Origin: Sandaracinus amylolyticus
GTDB taxonomy: Bacteria > Myxococcota_A > Polyangia > Polyangiales > Sandaracinaceae
Direction of reading: 5' to 3'
Length of the DNA: 64,000 nt
Assembly: GCF_021631985.1 (NCBI RefSeq)
Contig: NZ_CP070225.1
Coordinates: forward strand, 6,820,001-6,884,000
Shown: piece by piece, positions 8,641 through 56,783 of the stretch
Layout of the letters: the number at the start of each line of letters is the position of its first letter
Position numbering within the stretch: position 1 is the first letter of the stretch
Made by a program: the position numbers and the translations under genes
The notes under the pieces: generated by a model
Told to the model about the DNA's origin: nothing
Databases searched by the model: none
What the model saw: only the letters and a program-made list of their open reading frames with translations

Positions 8641-10190
8641 AGGTGTGCTCGCGACGCGCGTTGTGGTGCATGTGCGCGGTGGTCGTCGTCGGGTGCAGCC
8701 TCGATCGCACCGGGTTCGGAGGACAGGGCGGAGGCGGCATCGACGCAGGCGGGCGCGACGCGACCACCGGCGTGGACGCGAGCGACGACGAGCCCGATGC
8801 CGGCGAGCCCGACGCCGGCGAGATGGTCGACGCAGGCGAGATGATCGACGCGAGCGAGATGATCGACGCGGGCATCGACGCGAGCGAGCCGATCGACGCG
8901 GGCGAGATGATCGACGTCGGCGTGGACGCGTTCCGCGGCTGCCCCGTCGGGCTCGTCGAGTGCCAGGGCGACGTCATCGCGGAGTGCAACGCGTCGGGGC
9001 GCTTCGACATCGTCGAGACGTGCCCGATGGGGTGCCTCGGCGCGGAGGTGCCGGTGCGGTGCGCGCGGCTCGTGCCCTCGCACGTCGCCGATCCCGCGCG
9101 CCTCGTCGCGGGCACGACCGATCTCGTGGTGCGCGCGGGCGAGGTGGTCTCGATCGACACCGACACCGGGCGCATCGTCGAGACGGTGTCGGGCACCGAG
9201 CTGCGCGCAGCGGGCGCAGCGGGCGACGCGAGCGGGATGCTGCTCGCGACCGCGACGCAGGGGATGGGAAATCCCGAGGTCGCGATCGTCTCGGTCGGCG
9301 CGCTGCGCGTCGAGGCGGGCGGCCAGCTCGTCGCGAGCGGGCCGCGCGCGCTGATCCTGCTCGCTGCGGGCGAGGTGCGGATCGCAGGCGTGATCGACGT
9401 CGGCGGCAACGGTCGCGCCGGCGGTCCGGGCGCGGGCGGCGGCGGCGACGCACGGATGGCAGGGAGCGGCCCCGGCGCGGGCGGCCCCGGCAACGTGACC
9501 GGCACGTTCGGCGCGCTGATGGGCGGCGGCGGTGGCGGCGGTCACGCGGCGAACGGGGGCGAGGGCGGCGACGAGGGCGGCATCTCGGGGACCGCGCAGG
9601 GCGGCTCGAGCGGCGGCGTGCTCGGCGACGCGAGCGTGTCGGTGTTGATCGGCGGCGGAGGCGGCGGTGCGGGCGCGAACGCCGACGACGGTGGAGACGG
9701 CGGCGGAGGCGGCGGCGCGCTGCAGATCTCGAGCGCGGTCGGCATCGTGATCGCGACCGGCGGCGTGGTGCGCGCGCCGGGCGCGGGTGGCCGCGAAGGC
9801 GACGACGGCGGCGGCGGTGGTGGCGCGGGCGGGACGATCTTCCTCGAGGCGCCGAGCGTGGTGATCGACGGTGCGGTCGTCGCGAACGGCGGCGGCGGCG
9901 GCGGCGGCGACAGCGATCTGATCAACAACGCCGATCACGGCGAGCGCGGGCGCGACGACGCGGCGCGCGCCGACGGCGGCGACGGTGCGGGCGGCGGCGA
10001 TGGGGGCCGCGGCGGCGCAGGCGGCGAGCTCGCGGGCGAGAACGGCGAGAACGGCAACGGCGGCGGCGGCGGTGGTGGCGCGGCAGGGCGCGTCCGCATC
10101 CTCACGCGCACCGGTGCGTCGTCGGGCGCGGGCGTGCGCTCGCCGAGCGCGGCGGGCGGCTACGGCGAGGGCGTCGCGTCGTCGAGCTGA
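8637..10190 (+). CDS. Glycine-rich lipoprotein with Asp-Ala-Gly linker repeats
   Basis: A lipoprotein of about 517 residues starting at the ATG that overlaps the rnc stop. [20 protein letters not shown] is the signal peptide and lipobox. Residues about 35-95 form an imperfect repeat of the type DAGEMIDA / DASEMIDA / DAGEPDAG, a flexible acidic spacer. A small Cys module ([17 protein letters not shown]) leads into a beta-helix-like region interrupted by long poly-Gly blocks such as [16 protein letters not shown]. This composition is typical of cell-surface adhesive or structural proteins in myxobacteria. I know no defined function. Confidence 0.78.
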
Positions 10191-20325: not shown

Positions 20326-21219
20326 ATGCGTCGGACCAAAGCTGCGCTCGCAGCGATGCTGCTCCTCGCCTCCTGCCGTGCCGCATCGGCTCCATCGGAT
20401 TACGAGACGCTCGACCAGCGCCGAGCGCGCGAGCACCGCGAGATGCTCGAGCGGGTCGCGCCCATCGCAGCGCAGGCGGTGCGAGACCGCGCCTGCGAGG
20501 ACTGCGATCTCACGTACGCGACGCTGCGCGGGAGCGACCTCTCGGGCGGGCGATTCCACGACACCATCTTCGTGCACGCCGACGGGCGCGAGGTGAACCT
20601 GAGGGATGCAGATCTCAGCGAGACGGCACTCGGCGGGGACTTCACCGGAGCTGATTTCCGCGGCGCGAATCTTCGCGACGCGAGTGTTCACAGCGCGGTG
20701 TTCCGCAACGCTCGGCTCGATGGCGTCGACCTCCGAAGGATTCGCCACGCCGAGGCTGCGGATTGGGCCGAGGCCGTTCTCGAGGGCGCGAACCTCGAGC
20801 ACGTTCGCTTCACCGGCCCGCATGGCGCCGTGGATCGGACGACCCCGGGACAGCCGATGGGTGTCGCGAACGGCGGCACGGATCTCGGGCACGCGAACCT
20901 GCGTGGCGCGCGACTCGCGGGCGCGACGCTCGAGCGATGCTCGCTGCGCGGCGCGGATCTGCGCGGCGCCGACCTCACCGGCGCTCAGCTGTCGGGAGCC
21001 GATCTCAGCGGCGCGGACCTTCGCGGCGCAACCCTCGATCGAGCCGTCCTGCTCGGCGCGATCTTGCGTGGTGTGAACCTGGAGGGCGCGAGCGTTTCGC
21101 GCGCCGAATGGTCGTATCGCGGCGAGCGGGGCCACGCGCACCTGACGGGCGCGACCTGGACCGACGGCCGAGTGTGCGAGGCCGGCTCGGAGGGACGCTG
21201 CATCCGCTCGACGCGATGA
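20326..21219 (+). CDS. Pentapeptide-repeat lipoprotein, copy 1 (putative immunity protein)
   Basis: A 297-residue lipoprotein: MRRTKAALAAMLLLASC places the lipid on Cys17. After a charged helix (about 25-55) comes CEDCDLTYATLRGSDLSGG and then right-handed quadrilateral beta-helix repeats of the A(D/N)LXX type, for example GADFRGANLRDA and GADLRGADLTGA. A long insert (HGAVDRTTPGQPMGVANGG) and a small Cys-bearing cap (TWTDGRVCEAGSEGRCI) complete it. It is nearly identical to the copy at 21657 except for the leader and residues about 228-272. By position next to remnants of a lipase gene I infer a periplasmic protective role; no direct evidence exists. Confidence 0.82.
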   Translation: MRRTKAALAAMLLLASCRAASAPSDYETLDQRRAREHREMLERVAPIAAQAVRDRACEDCDLTYATLRGSDLSGGRFHDTIFVHADGREVNLRDADLSETALGGDFTGADFRGANLRDASVHSAVFRNARLDGVDLRRIRHAEAADWAEAVLEGANLEHVRFTGPHGAVDRTTPGQPMGVANGGTDLGHANLRGARLAGATLERCSLRGADLRGADLTGAQLSGADLSGADLRGATLDRAVLLGAILRGVNLEGASVSRAEWSYRGERGHAHLTGATWTDGRVCEAGSEGRCIRSTR

Positions 21220-21656: not shown

Positions 21657-22586
21657 ATGGAACGTTCCGCTCGAAATCCGCTCGAACCGAGTCTCGCGTA
21701 TCGGATCGCTCGGTTGTTGACGTGTCTGGTCGCGGTCGGGTGCTCCGCGCCTCCCGCTCCCCCAGACTACGAGACGCTCGACATGCGCCGAGCGCGCGAG
21801 CACCGAGAGATGCTCGAGCGCGTCGCGCCCATCGCAGCACGCGCGGTGAGAGACCGACGCTGCGAGGACTGCGATCTCACGTACGCGACGCTGCGCGGAA
21901 GCGACCTCTCGGGCGGGCGATTCCACGACACCATCTTCGTGCACGCCGACGGGCGCGACGTGAACCTGAGGGATGCGGATCTCAGCGAAACGGCACTCGG
22001 CGGGGACTTCACCGGAGCTGATTTCCGCGGCGCGAATCTTCGCGACGCGAGCGTGCACAGCGCGGTGTTCCGCAACGCTCGTCTCGACGGCGTGGACCTC
22101 CGAGCGATTCGCCACGCCGAGGCTGCGGATTGGGCCGAGGCCGTTCTCGAGGGCGCGAACCTCGAGAACGTTCGCTTCACGGGGCCGCATGGCGCCGTGG
22201 ATCGGACGACTCCGGGACAACCGATGGGTGTCGCGAACGGCGGCACGGATCTGGCGCACGCGAACCTGCGTGGCGCGCGACTCGCGGGCGCGACGCTCGA
22301 GCGATGCTCGCTGCGCGGCGCGGATCTGCGCGGCGCCGACCTCACCGGCGCTCATCTCTCGGGAGCCGACCTGAGCGACGCCGATCTTCGCGACGCCACC
22401 CTCGACCGGGCGACGCTGCTGGGAACCGATCTGCGAGGCGCGAACCTCCAGGACGCGCAGCTCTCGCGAGCTCGTTTCAGTGGTCGCTTGCCCGAGGGAG
22501 ATGCTCTCCTGACGGGCGCGACCTGGACCGATGGCCGGGTCTGCGGGGCCGGCTCCGATGGCCGATGCATCCGCTCATCGCGATGA
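21657..22586 (+). CDS. Pentapeptide-repeat lipoprotein, copy 2 (putative immunity protein)
   Basis: A 309-residue paralogue of the gene at 20326. The leader differs (lipobox VAVGC, Cys29), but from DYETLD onward only about eight residues change in the first 195. Difference is concentrated in the last repeat coils (ADLSDADLRDATLDRATLLG and the following 25 residues), then the Cys cap is again alike (TWTDGRVCGAGSDGRCI). The ATG at 21657 follows AGTGAG. It converges on, and overlaps by 12 bases, the lipase gene at 22575-24512. The arrangement suggests a protective partner of that lipase, anchored where a secreted toxin would act; this is inference. Confidence 0.82.
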   Translation: MERSARNPLEPSLAYRIARLLTCLVAVGCSAPPAPPDYETLDMRRAREHREMLERVAPIAARAVRDRRCEDCDLTYATLRGSDLSGGRFHDTIFVHADGRDVNLRDADLSETALGGDFTGADFRGANLRDASVHSAVFRNARLDGVDLRAIRHAEAADWAEAVLEGANLENVRFTGPHGAVDRTTPGQPMGVANGGTDLAHANLRGARLAGATLERCSLRGADLRGADLTGAHLSGADLSDADLRDATLDRATLLGTDLRGANLQDAQLSRARFSGRLPEGDALLTGATWTDGRVCGAGSDGRCIRSSR

Positions 22587-40922: not shown

Positions 40923-40934
40923 TCCACGGAACGA

Positions 40935-40980
40935 CGACGACGGCAGCCTACCTCGTCCTCCGGGTGGGCTGCCGTCGTCG
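40935..40980. terminator. Long hairpin between convergent genes
   Basis: A perfect 14-bp stem (cgacgacggcagcc / ggctgccgtcgtcg) with an 18-base loop lies between the debranching enzyme (plus) and the tetrad-repeat protein (minus). No T-run follows on either side, so it is a bidirectional stabilising hairpin or a rho-assisted terminator. Confidence 0.65.
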
Positions 40981-41000
40981 GTCGACGCGGTGGATCGCGA

Positions 41001-42236
41001 TCAGGAGAGCTGCGAGCTCATCCGCTCCTGCGCCATGCTCCGGACCGTCTCGGTCACGCGCTCGCGGAGATCGTCGCGGAGTCGCTCGCGGATCGCCTGC
41101 GCGACGCGCTCGCGCACGACCTCGCCGACACGCTCGCGCACCGCGTCCGCGAGCCGCTCGGGATCCATGTTGCCCTGCTGCATGCAGTTGCGGATCGTCT
41201 CGGCGAGCCGCTCGCGCAGGCCCTCCATCACGCGCTCGCGCGCGCGATCCGCGAGGCGCTCCGCGATCTCGTCGCCGAAGCGCTCGCGGAGGCGATCGCC
41301 GATGCGCTCCGCGAACCCGCCGCCCATCTGGGGCATGCCCATCTGTCCGCCGCCGACGGCGCCGAAGCCCATCTGCTGCGGCCCGAGCCCGGACAAGCTC
41401 ATCTGCTGCGGGCCGAAGCCCATCATCGACTGGCTGCCCATCATCATCATCATCGAGTTGCGCACCGCCTCCTGCACTCGCTCGCGCAGCGCGGACGCGA
41501 GGCGCTCGCGCAGCGCGTCCTCGAGGCGCTCGCGCATGCCCTGCGAGATGCGCTCGTGGATCGCGTCGGCGATGCGCGACTGGAGCATCTCGGGCCCGGC
41601 CCACGCGCCCTCGCTCTGCATGAGCGCAGTGCGCATGCCGTCGACGATGCGCGCTTCGATGCCCTCCATCACGCGCTCGCGGATCGCGGGCACGATGCGC
41701 TCCTGCACGACGCGCTCGCGCAGCCGCTCGCGGAGCTCCTGCGCGACGCGCTCGGCGATCGGATAGCTGCCCTCGCCGAGCTGGCTCTGGATCGCGTACA
41801 CGACGCGCTCGCGGATCCCGTCGACCATGCGATCGCGCAGCTCCTCGCGGATGTCGTCGCGCAGCGACTGCTCGATCCGATCACGCACCATCTCGACGAT
41901 GCGCTGCGCGGCCATCCCGCTCGTGATCGCGCCCGACGCGATCGCGGCGCGCACGCCCTCGCGGATGCGCTCGCGGAGGCGCTCCCGCAGCCGCTCGTGG
42001 ATCGCCTCGGAGAGCCGCGCGTGCAGGCCCTCGCGGATGCGCTCGTGCACACGCTCGGCGATGCGATCGCCGAGCTGGAATCCCCCTTCCTGCTGCTGCT
42101 GCCACCACTGCCCGCCGCCACCGCCAGCGAGCCCGCCCATCATCATCATCGGGCGACGTCCCATCGCCTGCTGCGTCATCGCGATCATCTGGCTGAGGCG
42201 GGACAGCTCCTGCTCGGTCACGTTGTCGGTCGTCAT
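41001..42236 (-). CDS. Tetrad-repeat protein (RERx/xExΦ) with Met- and Gly-rich spacers
   Basis: A 411-residue protein that I do not recognise. Hydrophobic residues recur every fourth position for long runs, for example at 59, 63, 67 up to 99, and again at 117-149, 222-258, 312-348 and 362-398, with Arg-Glu-Arg between them (RERL, RERV, AERI, HERI). Such strict four-residue periodicity gives one drifting stripe on a helix. Spacers are Met/Gly-rich (PMMMMGGLAGGGGGQWWQQQ, residues 260-308 with MMMMM and GFGPQQM). No signal or membrane segment. The start ATG 42236 follows GAAGAAGA. It lies downstream of a small acidic protein and a putative outer-membrane protein in the same direction. Confidence 0.8.
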   Translation of the reverse strand: MTTDNVTEQELSRLSQMIAMTQQAMGRRPMMMMGGLAGGGGGQWWQQQQEGGFQLGDRIAERVHERIREGLHARLSEAIHERLRERLRERIREGVRAAIASGAITSGMAAQRIVEMVRDRIEQSLRDDIREELRDRMVDGIRERVVYAIQSQLGEGSYPIAERVAQELRERLRERVVQERIVPAIRERVMEGIEARIVDGMRTALMQSEGAWAGPEMLQSRIADAIHERISQGMRERLEDALRERLASALRERVQEAVRNSMMMMMGSQSMMGFGPQQMSLSGLGPQQMGFGAVGGGQMGMPQMGGGFAERIGDRLRERFGDEIAERLADRARERVMEGLRERLAETIRNCMQQGNMDPERLADAVRERVGEVVRERVAQAIRERLRDDLRERVTETVRSMAQERMSSQLS

Positions 42237-42295
42237 CTCTTCTTCCCCCTGTATCGATTGATCGAGTGCACTGCCGAGTGAGTTCGTCGGACGCG

Positions 42296-42586
42296 CTACT
42301 CCTCCGCGTCGGCGCGTGCAGCGACATGCGAGATCGCGCGTTCCCCTTCGCGCGACGTCGCATCCGCGTGCTCTTCGTCGAGGCCCAGCGCCCACAGCTC
42401 GAACGCGATGCTCGGGATCGATCGCGCTGCGATCGCGAGCTCCGCGAATCGCACCGTGAGCTCGCCCTCGGAGGGCGCCTCGGGATCGGTGGGCGGAGCG
42501 CCGTCGATGCGGAGCTCCTCGCCCGTCAGCGCGCGGTGGATCGCGCGGATCTCCTGCGTCATTCGCTCGTAGGTTCGTCGCTCCAC
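42296..42586 (-). CDS. Small acidic helical protein
   Basis: A 96-residue protein starting at GTG 42586 (MERRTYERMTQEIRAIHRAL in translation) with AGGGGGC upstream. It is helical and acidic, ending ISHVAARADAEE. No family is recognised. It sits 59 bases upstream of the tetrad-repeat gene, so it is likely its operon partner and may bind it. The ATG at residue 9 is a possible later start. Confidence 0.6.
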   Translation of the reverse strand: MERRTYERMTQEIRAIHRALTGEELRIDGAPPTDPEAPSEGELTVRFAELAIAARSIPSIAFELWALGLDEEHADATSREGERAISHVAARADAEE

Positions 42587-42695: not shown

Positions 42696-43622
42696 TCACC
42701 GCGGAGATCGCGGCTCGGGACGCCACGCGACGAGCGAGAGCTGGAACACGAGCACCTGGCCCTCGGTGCGCGACCTCACGTCGAGCTCGCGCACCCAGCG
42801 CATCCCGATGCGACCTGGGAGCGCCGGCAACATCACGCCGATCTCGGCGCCGAGCGCGAAGACGCGATCACGCGCGCCCTGCAGCACGAGCGGTACATCG
42901 CTGCCTTCGTCGTCGGTGGTCTGCCAGAGCGCAGCGCCGACGACGCCGACGTCGACGAGATCGAAGAGCGTCGCGCCGATGCCGCCTTGGATCGTCAGGG
43001 CGTCGCCGCGGCGGATGTCGATCCCGTTCTTCGTCTGGTTGAGGTCGTAGCTCGCCATCGCGCTCGCGGAGTAGCGGCGCTCCTCGTCGACGTAGATCGC
43101 GGTGCCGAGCGAGAGCTCGTGCGTGATGTGCCCGCTGCTCACGCTGCCCTCGCCGAGGCGGAAGAGCCCGGTCGGCAGATAGAGCGCGTACCCCGTGACG
43201 ACGTCGACGTGGGGCAGGCGCCAGCCGAGCGAGAGTGGCTGCACGTACACGTCGCCGAGGCCCGAGCGATCGAGGCTGACCTGGGGGAGGTCGGAGGAGA
43301 GCGAGGCGTGCGCGAGCGGCAGCGCGGCGGTGACCGCGACGTACGTCGCTTCGTCGGGCAGCTCGACGACCAGCGAGAGACCGAGCGCGTTCCCGATCGC
43401 GTCGATGCGCAGATCTTCGATCGGCACCTCGGCGCCGGTGCGATCGTAGAGCGCGTCCGCGGTGTAGTAGGCGAGCTGATCCGCGACGTAGAGCCCTGCG
43501 TCCCGGCGTCGGCCGGCGTGGAGCCCCTGCGTCCCGATCAGTCGGTGACCGAGATCCTGCGCCGCAGCTGGCGCGCTCGTGAGGAGCGCCGCGAGGAGGA
43601 GCGCGCGAGAGAGGGCTCGCAT
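42696..43622 (-). CDS. Outer-membrane beta-barrel-like exported protein
   Basis: A 308-residue protein with a cleavable signal peptide (RALLLAALLTSAPAAAQ). Alternating hydrophobic/polar strands follow throughout (YVQPLSLGWRLPHVDVVTGY, TIQGGIGATLFDLVDVGVVG), ending with a strand VLVFQLSLVAWRP. The GYALYLPTG segment matches the SphA/MetA-type barrel family of phenol-degradation and transport clusters. It is probably a porin-like protein. It lies upstream of the small acidic protein after a 109-base gap and downstream of atpC, from which a hairpin separates it. Confidence 0.78.
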   Translation of the reverse strand: MRALSRALLLAALLTSAPAAAQDLGHRLIGTQGLHAGRRRDAGLYVADQLAYYTADALYDRTGAEVPIEDLRIDAIGNALGLSLVVELPDEATYVAVTAALPLAHASLSSDLPQVSLDRSGLGDVYVQPLSLGWRLPHVDVVTGYALYLPTGLFRLGEGSVSSGHITHELSLGTAIYVDEERRYSASAMASYDLNQTKNGIDIRRGDALTIQGGIGATLFDLVDVGVVGAALWQTTDDEGSDVPLVLQGARDRVFALGAEIGVMLPALPGRIGMRWVRELDVRSRTEGQVLVFQLSLVAWRPEPRSPR

Positions 43623-43739: not shown

Positions 43740-44174
43740 TCAGGGGTGCGAGCCGTTGTCCGCCTTCGCCTGGAGGCGCGCGAGGCACCAGTCGATCTGG
43801 CGCTGCAGCTCCTCGTAGCGCGGCCCCTCGTAGAGCTCGCCGTAGCCCGCGAGCTCCTTCTCGGCCGCCTCGAGCTCGCTCTGCACCTTCGCGGTGTCGA
43901 TCTCCTTCGGCTGCGCGAACACGTCGCACAGGAGGAGCACCTTGTCGGGGCCCGCCTCGACGAAGCCCGCGCCCACCGCCGCCACGTGATCCTTGCCGGC
44001 GACGCGATACTTCACGACGCCCGGCTTGAGCGCGGCGAGCAGCGGGAGGTGGCCCGCGAACACGCCGAACTCGCCGTGCACGCTGGGCGCCGCCACGCTC
44101 TCCGCCTCCGTGCGGAGCACGAGACCGAGCGGAGTCGCGACCTCGAGAGTCAGAAGCTCAGGATTGGCAGCCAT
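43740..44174 (-). CDS. atpC: ATP synthase F1 epsilon subunit
   Basis: A 144-residue F1 epsilon. The beta-sandwich shows LTLEVATPLGLVLRTEAESV, VHGEFGVFAGHLPLLAALKP and VVKYRVAGKDHVAAVGAGFV; the C-terminal helical hairpin follows (VQSELEAAEKELAGYGEL). It couples rotation of the central stalk to catalysis and can inhibit ATP hydrolysis. The ATG at 44174 uses an AAGGAG that overlaps the atpD stop, so translation is coupled. The rest of the F1 and Fo genes are not beside it. Confidence 0.95.
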   Translation of the reverse strand: MAANPELLTLEVATPLGLVLRTEAESVAAPSVHGEFGVFAGHLPLLAALKPGVVKYRVAGKDHVAAVGAGFVEAGPDKVLLLCDVFAQPKEIDTAKVQSELEAAEKELAGYGELYEGPRYEELQRQIDWCLARLQAKADNGSHP

Positions 44175-44180
44175 CGCCAA

Positions 44181-45722
<1,542 letters not shown>

Positions 45723-56696: not shown

Positions 56697-56783
56697 CCAG
56701 GAGCCACCGGCTCCTGACCCAGGAGACATCGGCTCCTGGCCCAGGAGCGATCGGCTCCTGACCCAGGAGACATCGACTGCTCC
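56697..56783. repeat. Four tandem 22-bp palindromic repeats
   Basis: Units start at 56697, 56719, 56741 and 56763 with consensus CCAGGAGnnAnCGGCTCCTGnC; the fourth is slightly decayed and one base short. Each contains an inverted AGGAG / CTCCT pair able to form a small hairpin, and neighbouring units could pair with each other. A palindrome GTCACGTGAC lies just upstream at 56665-56674. The array is in the intergenic region between divergent genes starting at 56629 and 56901. Confidence 0.85.

Follow-up and report, generated by a model that had tools for sequence, protein, structure and literature searches.

A patchily distributed myxobacterial protein family with a hydrophobic residue every 4.0 residues of its long predicted helices, and an associated small heat-shock protein

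What kind of protein is encoded by a frame in which an aliphatic or Met residue falls at every fourth position, and is it a conserved helical protein or an expanded 12-base DNA repeat? The question was raised by an earlier note on the window, which is a stretch of 64,000 nucleotides of the Sandaracinus amylolyticus genome (contig NZ_CP070225.1, positions 6,820,001 to 6,884,000), and is followed up here by computation. The gene and its parts, in window positions, are as follows.

41001..42236, minus strand: tetrad-helix gene, ATG to TGA, 411 aa, with GGGGGAAG immediately 5' of the ATG
42150..42236, minus strand: N-terminal segment, residues 1-29 (MTTDNVTEQELSRLSQMIAMTQQAMGRRP), a short helix (model helix 4-26)
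41424..42077, minus strand: residues 54-271, with four long tetrad helices that probably form a four-helix bundle (from the model and matched structures)
41325..41423, minus strand: residues 272-304, Met/Gly/Gln/Phe-rich disordered linker of variable length (pLDDT <50; indels relative to G001)
41007..41324, minus strand: residues 305-410, the two C-terminal helices (model helices 305-353 and 359-410)

In the window protein, a short N-terminal helix is followed by a Met/Gly/Gln/Trp-rich stretch, four tetrad blocks, the Met/Gly/Gln/Phe linker, and two further tetrad blocks. Residues V, I, L, M, or F form unbroken chains at a spacing of four with 12, 11, 5, 8, 13, 7, 5, and 10 members, which confirms the aliphatic or Met residue at each fourth position; the earlier note had also counted at least five blocks of 10-11 turns, and under the strict definition used here four blocks have at least 10 members. 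The protein contains 66 Arg, no Lys, and 66 Asp plus Glu. The chains comprise 63 tetrads, of which 46 have Glu or Asp at the third position; at the last position, 30 have Arg and 19 have Ala or Gly. The RER triplets described between the stripe residues are present, as are the Met- and Gly-rich spacers. A spectrum computed without preselection of segments peaked at a period of 4.06 for residues 52-262 (power 28.1, with 4.59 at 4.00, 0.14 at 3.5, and 1.34 at 3.6) and at 4.12 for residues 313-411 (power 16.6, with 1.26 at 4.00); the peaks lie at these values rather than at 4.00 because the strict chains are joined by phase slips of +1. The chain of 12 in residues 52-262 was reached by 2 of 20,000 composition shuffles. 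The window has 310 stop-to-stop frames of 100 aa or more, and a chain of 13 occurred only in the tetrad gene and its own antisense frame, the next best being 7. In the orthologue G001, from a second Sandaracinus genome, the longest chain was 12, against 13 as the longest among its 2,000 shuffles. The antisense frame (40923-42278, plus strand) is open for 452 codons and also carries a period-four stripe, which is probably a by-product of codon complementarity; the codon-position changes given below favor the minus strand over it.

Homologues were sought by profile, as the earlier note had proposed, and distant members that retain the pattern were found. A two-sequence profile recovered distant members in the same class, and a later profile recovered one member in another class, which gave ten members (G000, the window genome, with G001, G375, G165, G156, G162, G082, G197, G198, and G188) from five families and two classes of the phylum. 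The nine homologues are 27-85% identical to the window protein, G188 being lowest at 27%, and homology spans nearly the full length of the protein. Residues 1-29 are identical at 29 of 29 positions between the window protein and G001, several homologues align with DNNEMQxLNxAIxxA at this segment, and an MDPERL cap that precedes the second C-terminal helix is common to most homologues. Named matches to the family were Nannocystis exedens DSM 71, Nannocystis sp. RBIL2, a Kofleriaceae MAG, and a Myxococcales MAG. A search for related loci that used just the window protein as query gave 48 stretches matching a pattern, of which none was confirmed. At E 1e-9, 11 of 317 class genomes matched (nine with family members and two, G043 and G107, with DNA repeats), and in a scan of the phylum 6 of 377 genomes matched (four with family members and two, G043 and G424, with repeats); these counts are lower bounds because genomes are incomplete and the number of candidates scored was limited. 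Distribution within genera is patchy, the gene occurring in at least 3 of 7 genomes of g138, at least 3 of 16 of g102, and at least 2 of 3 of Sandaracinus. The members constitute an unnamed, patchily distributed myxobacterial family of proteins with about six long alpha-helices and a hydrophobic residue every 4.0 residues. In genome G164 (contig C4), a 76-codon frame (L105, about 9866-10024, minus strand) with only the C-terminal tetrads and the tail EFSGFGSGVR is likely a remnant of the gene, the full form of which was not found there.

The earlier note had allowed that homologues might reveal a recent expansion of a 12-base repeat, frame-shifted or lost in other strains, and the tetrad gene could in that case be a recent or non-functional low-complexity frame. 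True 12-bp repeats in the phylum do give tetrad frames (e.g. RDRV, SETV, SESV), which would allow a remote origin of this kind, and the tetrad gene is missing from many relatives. However, DNA self-identity at lag 12 was 0.41 in the tetrad gene and 0.42-0.47 in three other members, compared with 0.87-0.97 in true 12-bp repeats and 0.35 in atpD, and no near-perfect lag-12 repeat of the kind that defines a 12-bp microsatellite ORF was found in the gene. Self-identity at lag 24 (0.526) exceeded that at lag 12 (0.409), which points to a weaker eight-residue sub-period. Homologues of 28-49% identity align end to end, and with the same profile the best-piece E-values of the family were 7.6e-93 to 2e-178, compared with 8.9e-11 at best for tetrad-coding DNA repeats. 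The G001 orthologue is 85% identical with the same start, with 35/29/75 substitutions by codon position relative to the window gene and dN/dS values of 0.088/0.244 over the whole gene and 0.057/0.215 in the helices; the helices are 90% identical without indels, and all linkers together are 63% identical and change in length. A recent or non-functional repeat-derived frame is thus highly improbable. The part of the objection that concerned recent expansion largely falls, since the pattern is kept down to 27% identity in non-repeat DNA, and the part that concerned loss has some substance, since the gene is absent from many close relatives searched and only a C-terminal remnant persists in G164. 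The family may have begun as a 12-bp repeat from which the present genes have long diverged. Tetrad-coding 12-bp repeats (RDRV, AETV, GHGL, SESV) were observed at L005, L008, L011, and L012 (G043), L077 (G007), L027 (G236), L176 (G107), and L074 (G424); weak matches at E up to 0.001 in G043, G007, G236, G107, G424, and others were set aside as such repeats or unrelated frames, as judged by reading part of them.

Conservation of the stripe itself was assessed from changes between close pairs. When three independent close pairs were pooled, 51 of 63 stripe changes stayed within V/I/L/M/F, compared with 33.8 expected from single-base neighbors (P 6e-6). Two further pairs, in which 20 of 22 changes (G165-G162; expectation 11.3) and 29 of 34 changes (G156-G162; expectation 17.7) stayed within this set, were excluded because they would use sequences more than once. 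In the Sandaracinus pair alone, 9 of 14 changes were of this kind against an expectation of 8.1, and no excess was seen. In the pooled close pairs, the stripe residues are under purifying selection.

The period of the stripe lies outside that of known coiled coils. Within tetrad segments it peaked at 3.99-4.04 in all ten members, a range that measures the precision of the period rather than its existence, since the segments were preselected for tetrad chains; existence is tested by the unselected spectrum, with its peaks of 4.06-4.12. The passages of PMC4786415 used here give 3.5 for heptads, 3.67 for hendecads, 3.75 for pentadecads, and 3.8 for YadA, the most extreme known, and place accessible coiled-coil periods between 3.33 and about 3.9 with 4.0 outside. 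Family members resemble coiled coils in having long helices with a periodic hydrophobic stripe and differ in that their period exceeds that range, as the earlier note had held in setting the pattern apart from normal coiled coils. With about 3.6 residues to each turn of an alpha-helix, a four-residue stripe winds round the helix, and at 3.63 residues per turn the computed drift is about 410 degrees in 45 residues. The drifting stripe on an Arg/Glu-coated helix that had been proposed is thus supported by the Fourier peak and the predicted helices.

The nearest solved principle found is that of the Sac3 CID helix of yeast TREX-2, which has an approximate four-residue hydrophobic repeat forming a right-handed stripe with a pitch of about 40 A that is gripped by Sus1/ENY2 (PMC2726291, in the passages used). 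In Sac3, as described there, the stripe is confined to a single helix, at two sites each about 25 residues long that other proteins bind, whereas in the tetrad family it runs over about six helices per protein; the family is bacterial and no relationship to Sac3 was found. The likeness is one of analogy, not kinship. Sac3 was the sole precedent for a period-four helix family among the literature matches listed. The window protein scored 29.2 bits against EnY2/Sus1 (PF10163; cut-off 27), which 2 of 10 members matched at E up to 0.001.

Helices were predicted throughout the two AlphaFold models, both of which are of single chains and rest on 9-10 sequences of a kind, rich in Arg, Glu, and Leu, that is readily predicted helical. 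With the window protein first (9 sequences), mean pLDDT was 67, rising to about 80 in the first four helices, and pTM was 0.42; the helices were 42-100, 109-153, 155-190/193-208, 215-271, 305-353, and 359-410. With the G197 protein first (10 sequences), pLDDT in the first four helices was mostly 89-94 with dips to 81, and pTM was 0.51. Each helix is roughly 45-57 residues long. In structure comparison, about residues 40-275 resembled long four-helix bundles, including the designed bundle 4uos (Z 13.1, 7.2 A over 188), and the G197 model aligned with 4bej_B at Z 11.5 and 3.8 A over 203 residues; dynamin-like proteins gave Z up to 12.8 at 5-14% identity, all of these Z values falling where the tool warns of a mere common arrangement of long helices. 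The likeness to the four-helix bundle of dynamin-like stalks (4bej, 5wp9, 7zw6) lies in the alignment of the G197 model; dynamin-like proteins combine the stalk with a GTPase domain, and the tetrad family had no GTPase family among the Pfam matches listed. For neither model did Foldseek find a PDB match at E 0.001, and a PDB sequence search with the family profile gave none at E 0.1. On these models, the first four helices probably form a four-helix bundle, and the last two are predicted to form a separate hairpin joined by the disordered linker.

The earlier note had suggested a single free alpha-helix or a supercoiled assembly. Separate charged rods or spacers without tertiary packing would fit the balance of 66 Arg and 66 Asp plus Glu, the RER triplets, and the helices found throughout both models. 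Known single alpha-helices carry charge along nearly their whole length, unlike the window protein, in which each fourth residue is a large aliphatic one; the stripe residues are moreover kept aliphatic in close pairs, and the G197 model is confident and bundle-like. Since the models match four-helix bundles, the free helix has less support, and charged rods are judged unlikely. The same low standing is given to an inter-chain assembly in which helices would form a tightly wound right-handed rope whose core period is truly near 4.0, with about 39 residues per wrap: the period near 4.0 in all ten members and the low-complexity linkers agree with it, and the upper limit of about 3.9, with 3.8 as the extreme and 4.0 outside the accessible range, stands against it in the cited part of PMC4786415. 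A broader proposal, in which packing of the helices keeps a true core period of 4.0 through stretches of 45 residues, in a bundle or in a multi-chain rope beyond the coiled-coil limit set so far, and a chaperone of their own aids folding or assembly, is doubtful, if rather less so than the rope alone. A core period of 4.0 corresponds to about 2.5-fold tighter winding of opposite sense relative to a heptad coiled coil (39 versus 98 residues per wrap).

A candidate for such a chaperone, which the earlier note had overlooked, is encoded directly upstream of the tetrad gene on the same strand.

42296..42586, minus strand: partner gene, putative small heat-shock protein (sHSP) N-terminal arm, 96 aa from a likely GTG or 88 aa from the ATG at 42562

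The gap between the two genes is 59 nt in the window, 60 nt in G001, 100 nt in G375, and 27 nt in G082, and they overlap by 4 nt in G198. The upstream partners of G375, G198, and G082 exceeded the PF00011 (Hsp20) cut-off of 20.8 bits (30.9, 23.5, and 38.4, respectively) and have a common N-terminal arm, RAIYRALTGED..FADL..AR..P..AERVPPF. The 88-aa form of the window partner matched no Pfam family, and no alpha-crystallin domain was found in it; against the sHSP profile, the arm-only partners gave E 4e-8 over positions 2-68 of 186 (G000) and E 2e-8 over positions 2-62 (G001). Judged from sequence, the Sandaracinus partner would be an sHSP arm whose crystallin domain was lost. The partners thus share with Hsp20 the crystallin domain in G375, G198, and G082, and differ from it in the cassette-specific arm and in the apparent loss of the domain in Sandaracinus. 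A full sHSP gene lies upstream in 3 of the 10 family genomes and the N-terminal arm alone in two more, both Sandaracinus. With the arm as query, four of the 289 class genomes gave strong matches (E <1e-28), each next to a tetrad gene, and G375 matched as well; the other 12 of 16 arm-matching genomes were weaker, at E 6e-5 to 0.0098. No such sHSP or arm was found beside the tetrad gene in the remaining five family genomes (G165, G156, and G162, of one genus, with G188 and G197), which elsewhere contain only generic crystallin domains, so that the tetrad gene does not require the sHSP beside it. Seen from the partner, the link is tight; seen from the tetrad gene, it is optional. That the arm outlives the crystallin domain in Sandaracinus suggests that it contacts the tetrad protein. 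The literature search returned nothing on sHSP in Nannocystis, and "small heat shock" did not occur among the Sandaracinus, spore, and myxobacteria matches listed.

The dedicated sHSP, the disordered low-complexity linkers, and the many striped helices suggest a chaperone-linked structural scaffold made up of the tetrad protein and its sHSP, a reading based on sequence and models to which we assign a probability of roughly 0.4. The period, the conservation, the gene linkage, and the helix prediction are results of computation, and the mechanism built on them is conditional. The first four helices would pack against one another as a bundle and the last two would form a hairpin, and any part of the stripe left unburied by the bundle would be available for binding to further copies or to different proteins. 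The dedicated upstream sHSP would work with the tetrad protein, docking most likely via its conserved N-terminal arm, and together they may form a scaffold that holds or organizes proteins under stress; in Sandaracinus, the crystallin domain would have been lost and the arm retained.

Two other functions were weighed. Many amphipathic helices would suit a surface-binding protein of a granule or lipid body, similar to a phasin or perilipin, and sHSPs are known to occur on inclusions. However, the stripe makes more than one full turn about each helix and so leaves no constant lipid face, and no phasin family was among the Pfam and NCBIfam matches listed, which makes such a protein quite unlikely. 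A gas-vesicle accessory protein of the GvpQ kind was considered because all ten members weakly match NCBIfam GvpQ (NF041670; best 2.2e-12), and GvpA was found in 3 of the 10 family genomes compared with none of 10 other genomes tested. The window protein scored 44.3 bits over 40 residues, below the curated cut-off of 100 bits, and matched profile positions 10-49 of 137 only; 7 of the 10 family genomes show no GvpA (G198, which is 59% complete, among them), and neither of the two gvp regions read (G000 and G197) contains a tetrad gene, that of the window genome lying at 6.86 Mb and gvpA at 9.75 Mb. A GvpQ-type role is accordingly very unlikely. The gas-vesicle region of the window genome (L168, G000:C1:9742001-9762000) has three GvpA-type matches, and G001 and G197 have three each.

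Other database similarities appear to reflect composition. The window protein scored 33.5 bits against DUF445 (PF04286; gathering cut-off 33.8), which 8 of 10 members matched at E up to 0.001; the similarity is probably one of shared helix composition, and the tetrad family may be remotely related to DUF445. Twelve PHROGs families matched (best E 5.6e-10), including plasmid stability in 9 of 10 members and head morphogenesis in 5 of 10, and were taken as compositional. PADLOC gave no match for three proteins, and no match at 1e-5 was found for the window protein among plasmid records or for the G197 protein among phage records.

Apart from the sHSP, no functional neighbor common across genera was found; the only cross-genus matches, at a distance of a few kb, were sensor histidine kinases and Ser/Thr kinases, both of which are common in myxobacteria. 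In the window, the cassette is preceded by a PF13557 outer-membrane-type gene (42696-43622) and, farther upstream, by the genes for F1 ATP synthase epsilon and beta (43740-45620, minus strand). Downstream, the tetrad gene ends near a hairpin.

40925..40990, no strand assigned: GC-rich hairpin between the tetrad gene and its convergent neighbor (-44.5 kcal/mol, z -5.5; conserved in G001; no T run)

The hairpin is a possible two-way terminator; a promoter and terminator scan called nothing, this hairpin included. Elsewhere in the window, a 22-bp tandem repeat of 3.6 copies (56697-56775) has a unit that contains the inverted repeat AGGAGCC..GGCTCCT, and 15-bp repeats at 20944-21029 and 22311-22409 would read LRGAD-like, which suggests pentapeptide-repeat proteins.

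The linked sHSP offers a way to test a chaperone with an apparently dedicated partner, and the Sandaracinus remnant, which lacks the crystallin domain, suggests that the N-terminal arm of the sHSP has a separable role. Work on coiled coils, in the part of PMC4786415 cited here, holds a sustained period of 4.0 to be inaccessible, and this family stays within a few hundredths of that value across two bacterial classes. The structure of a family member would bear both on helix packing and on the accepted limit for coiled coils.
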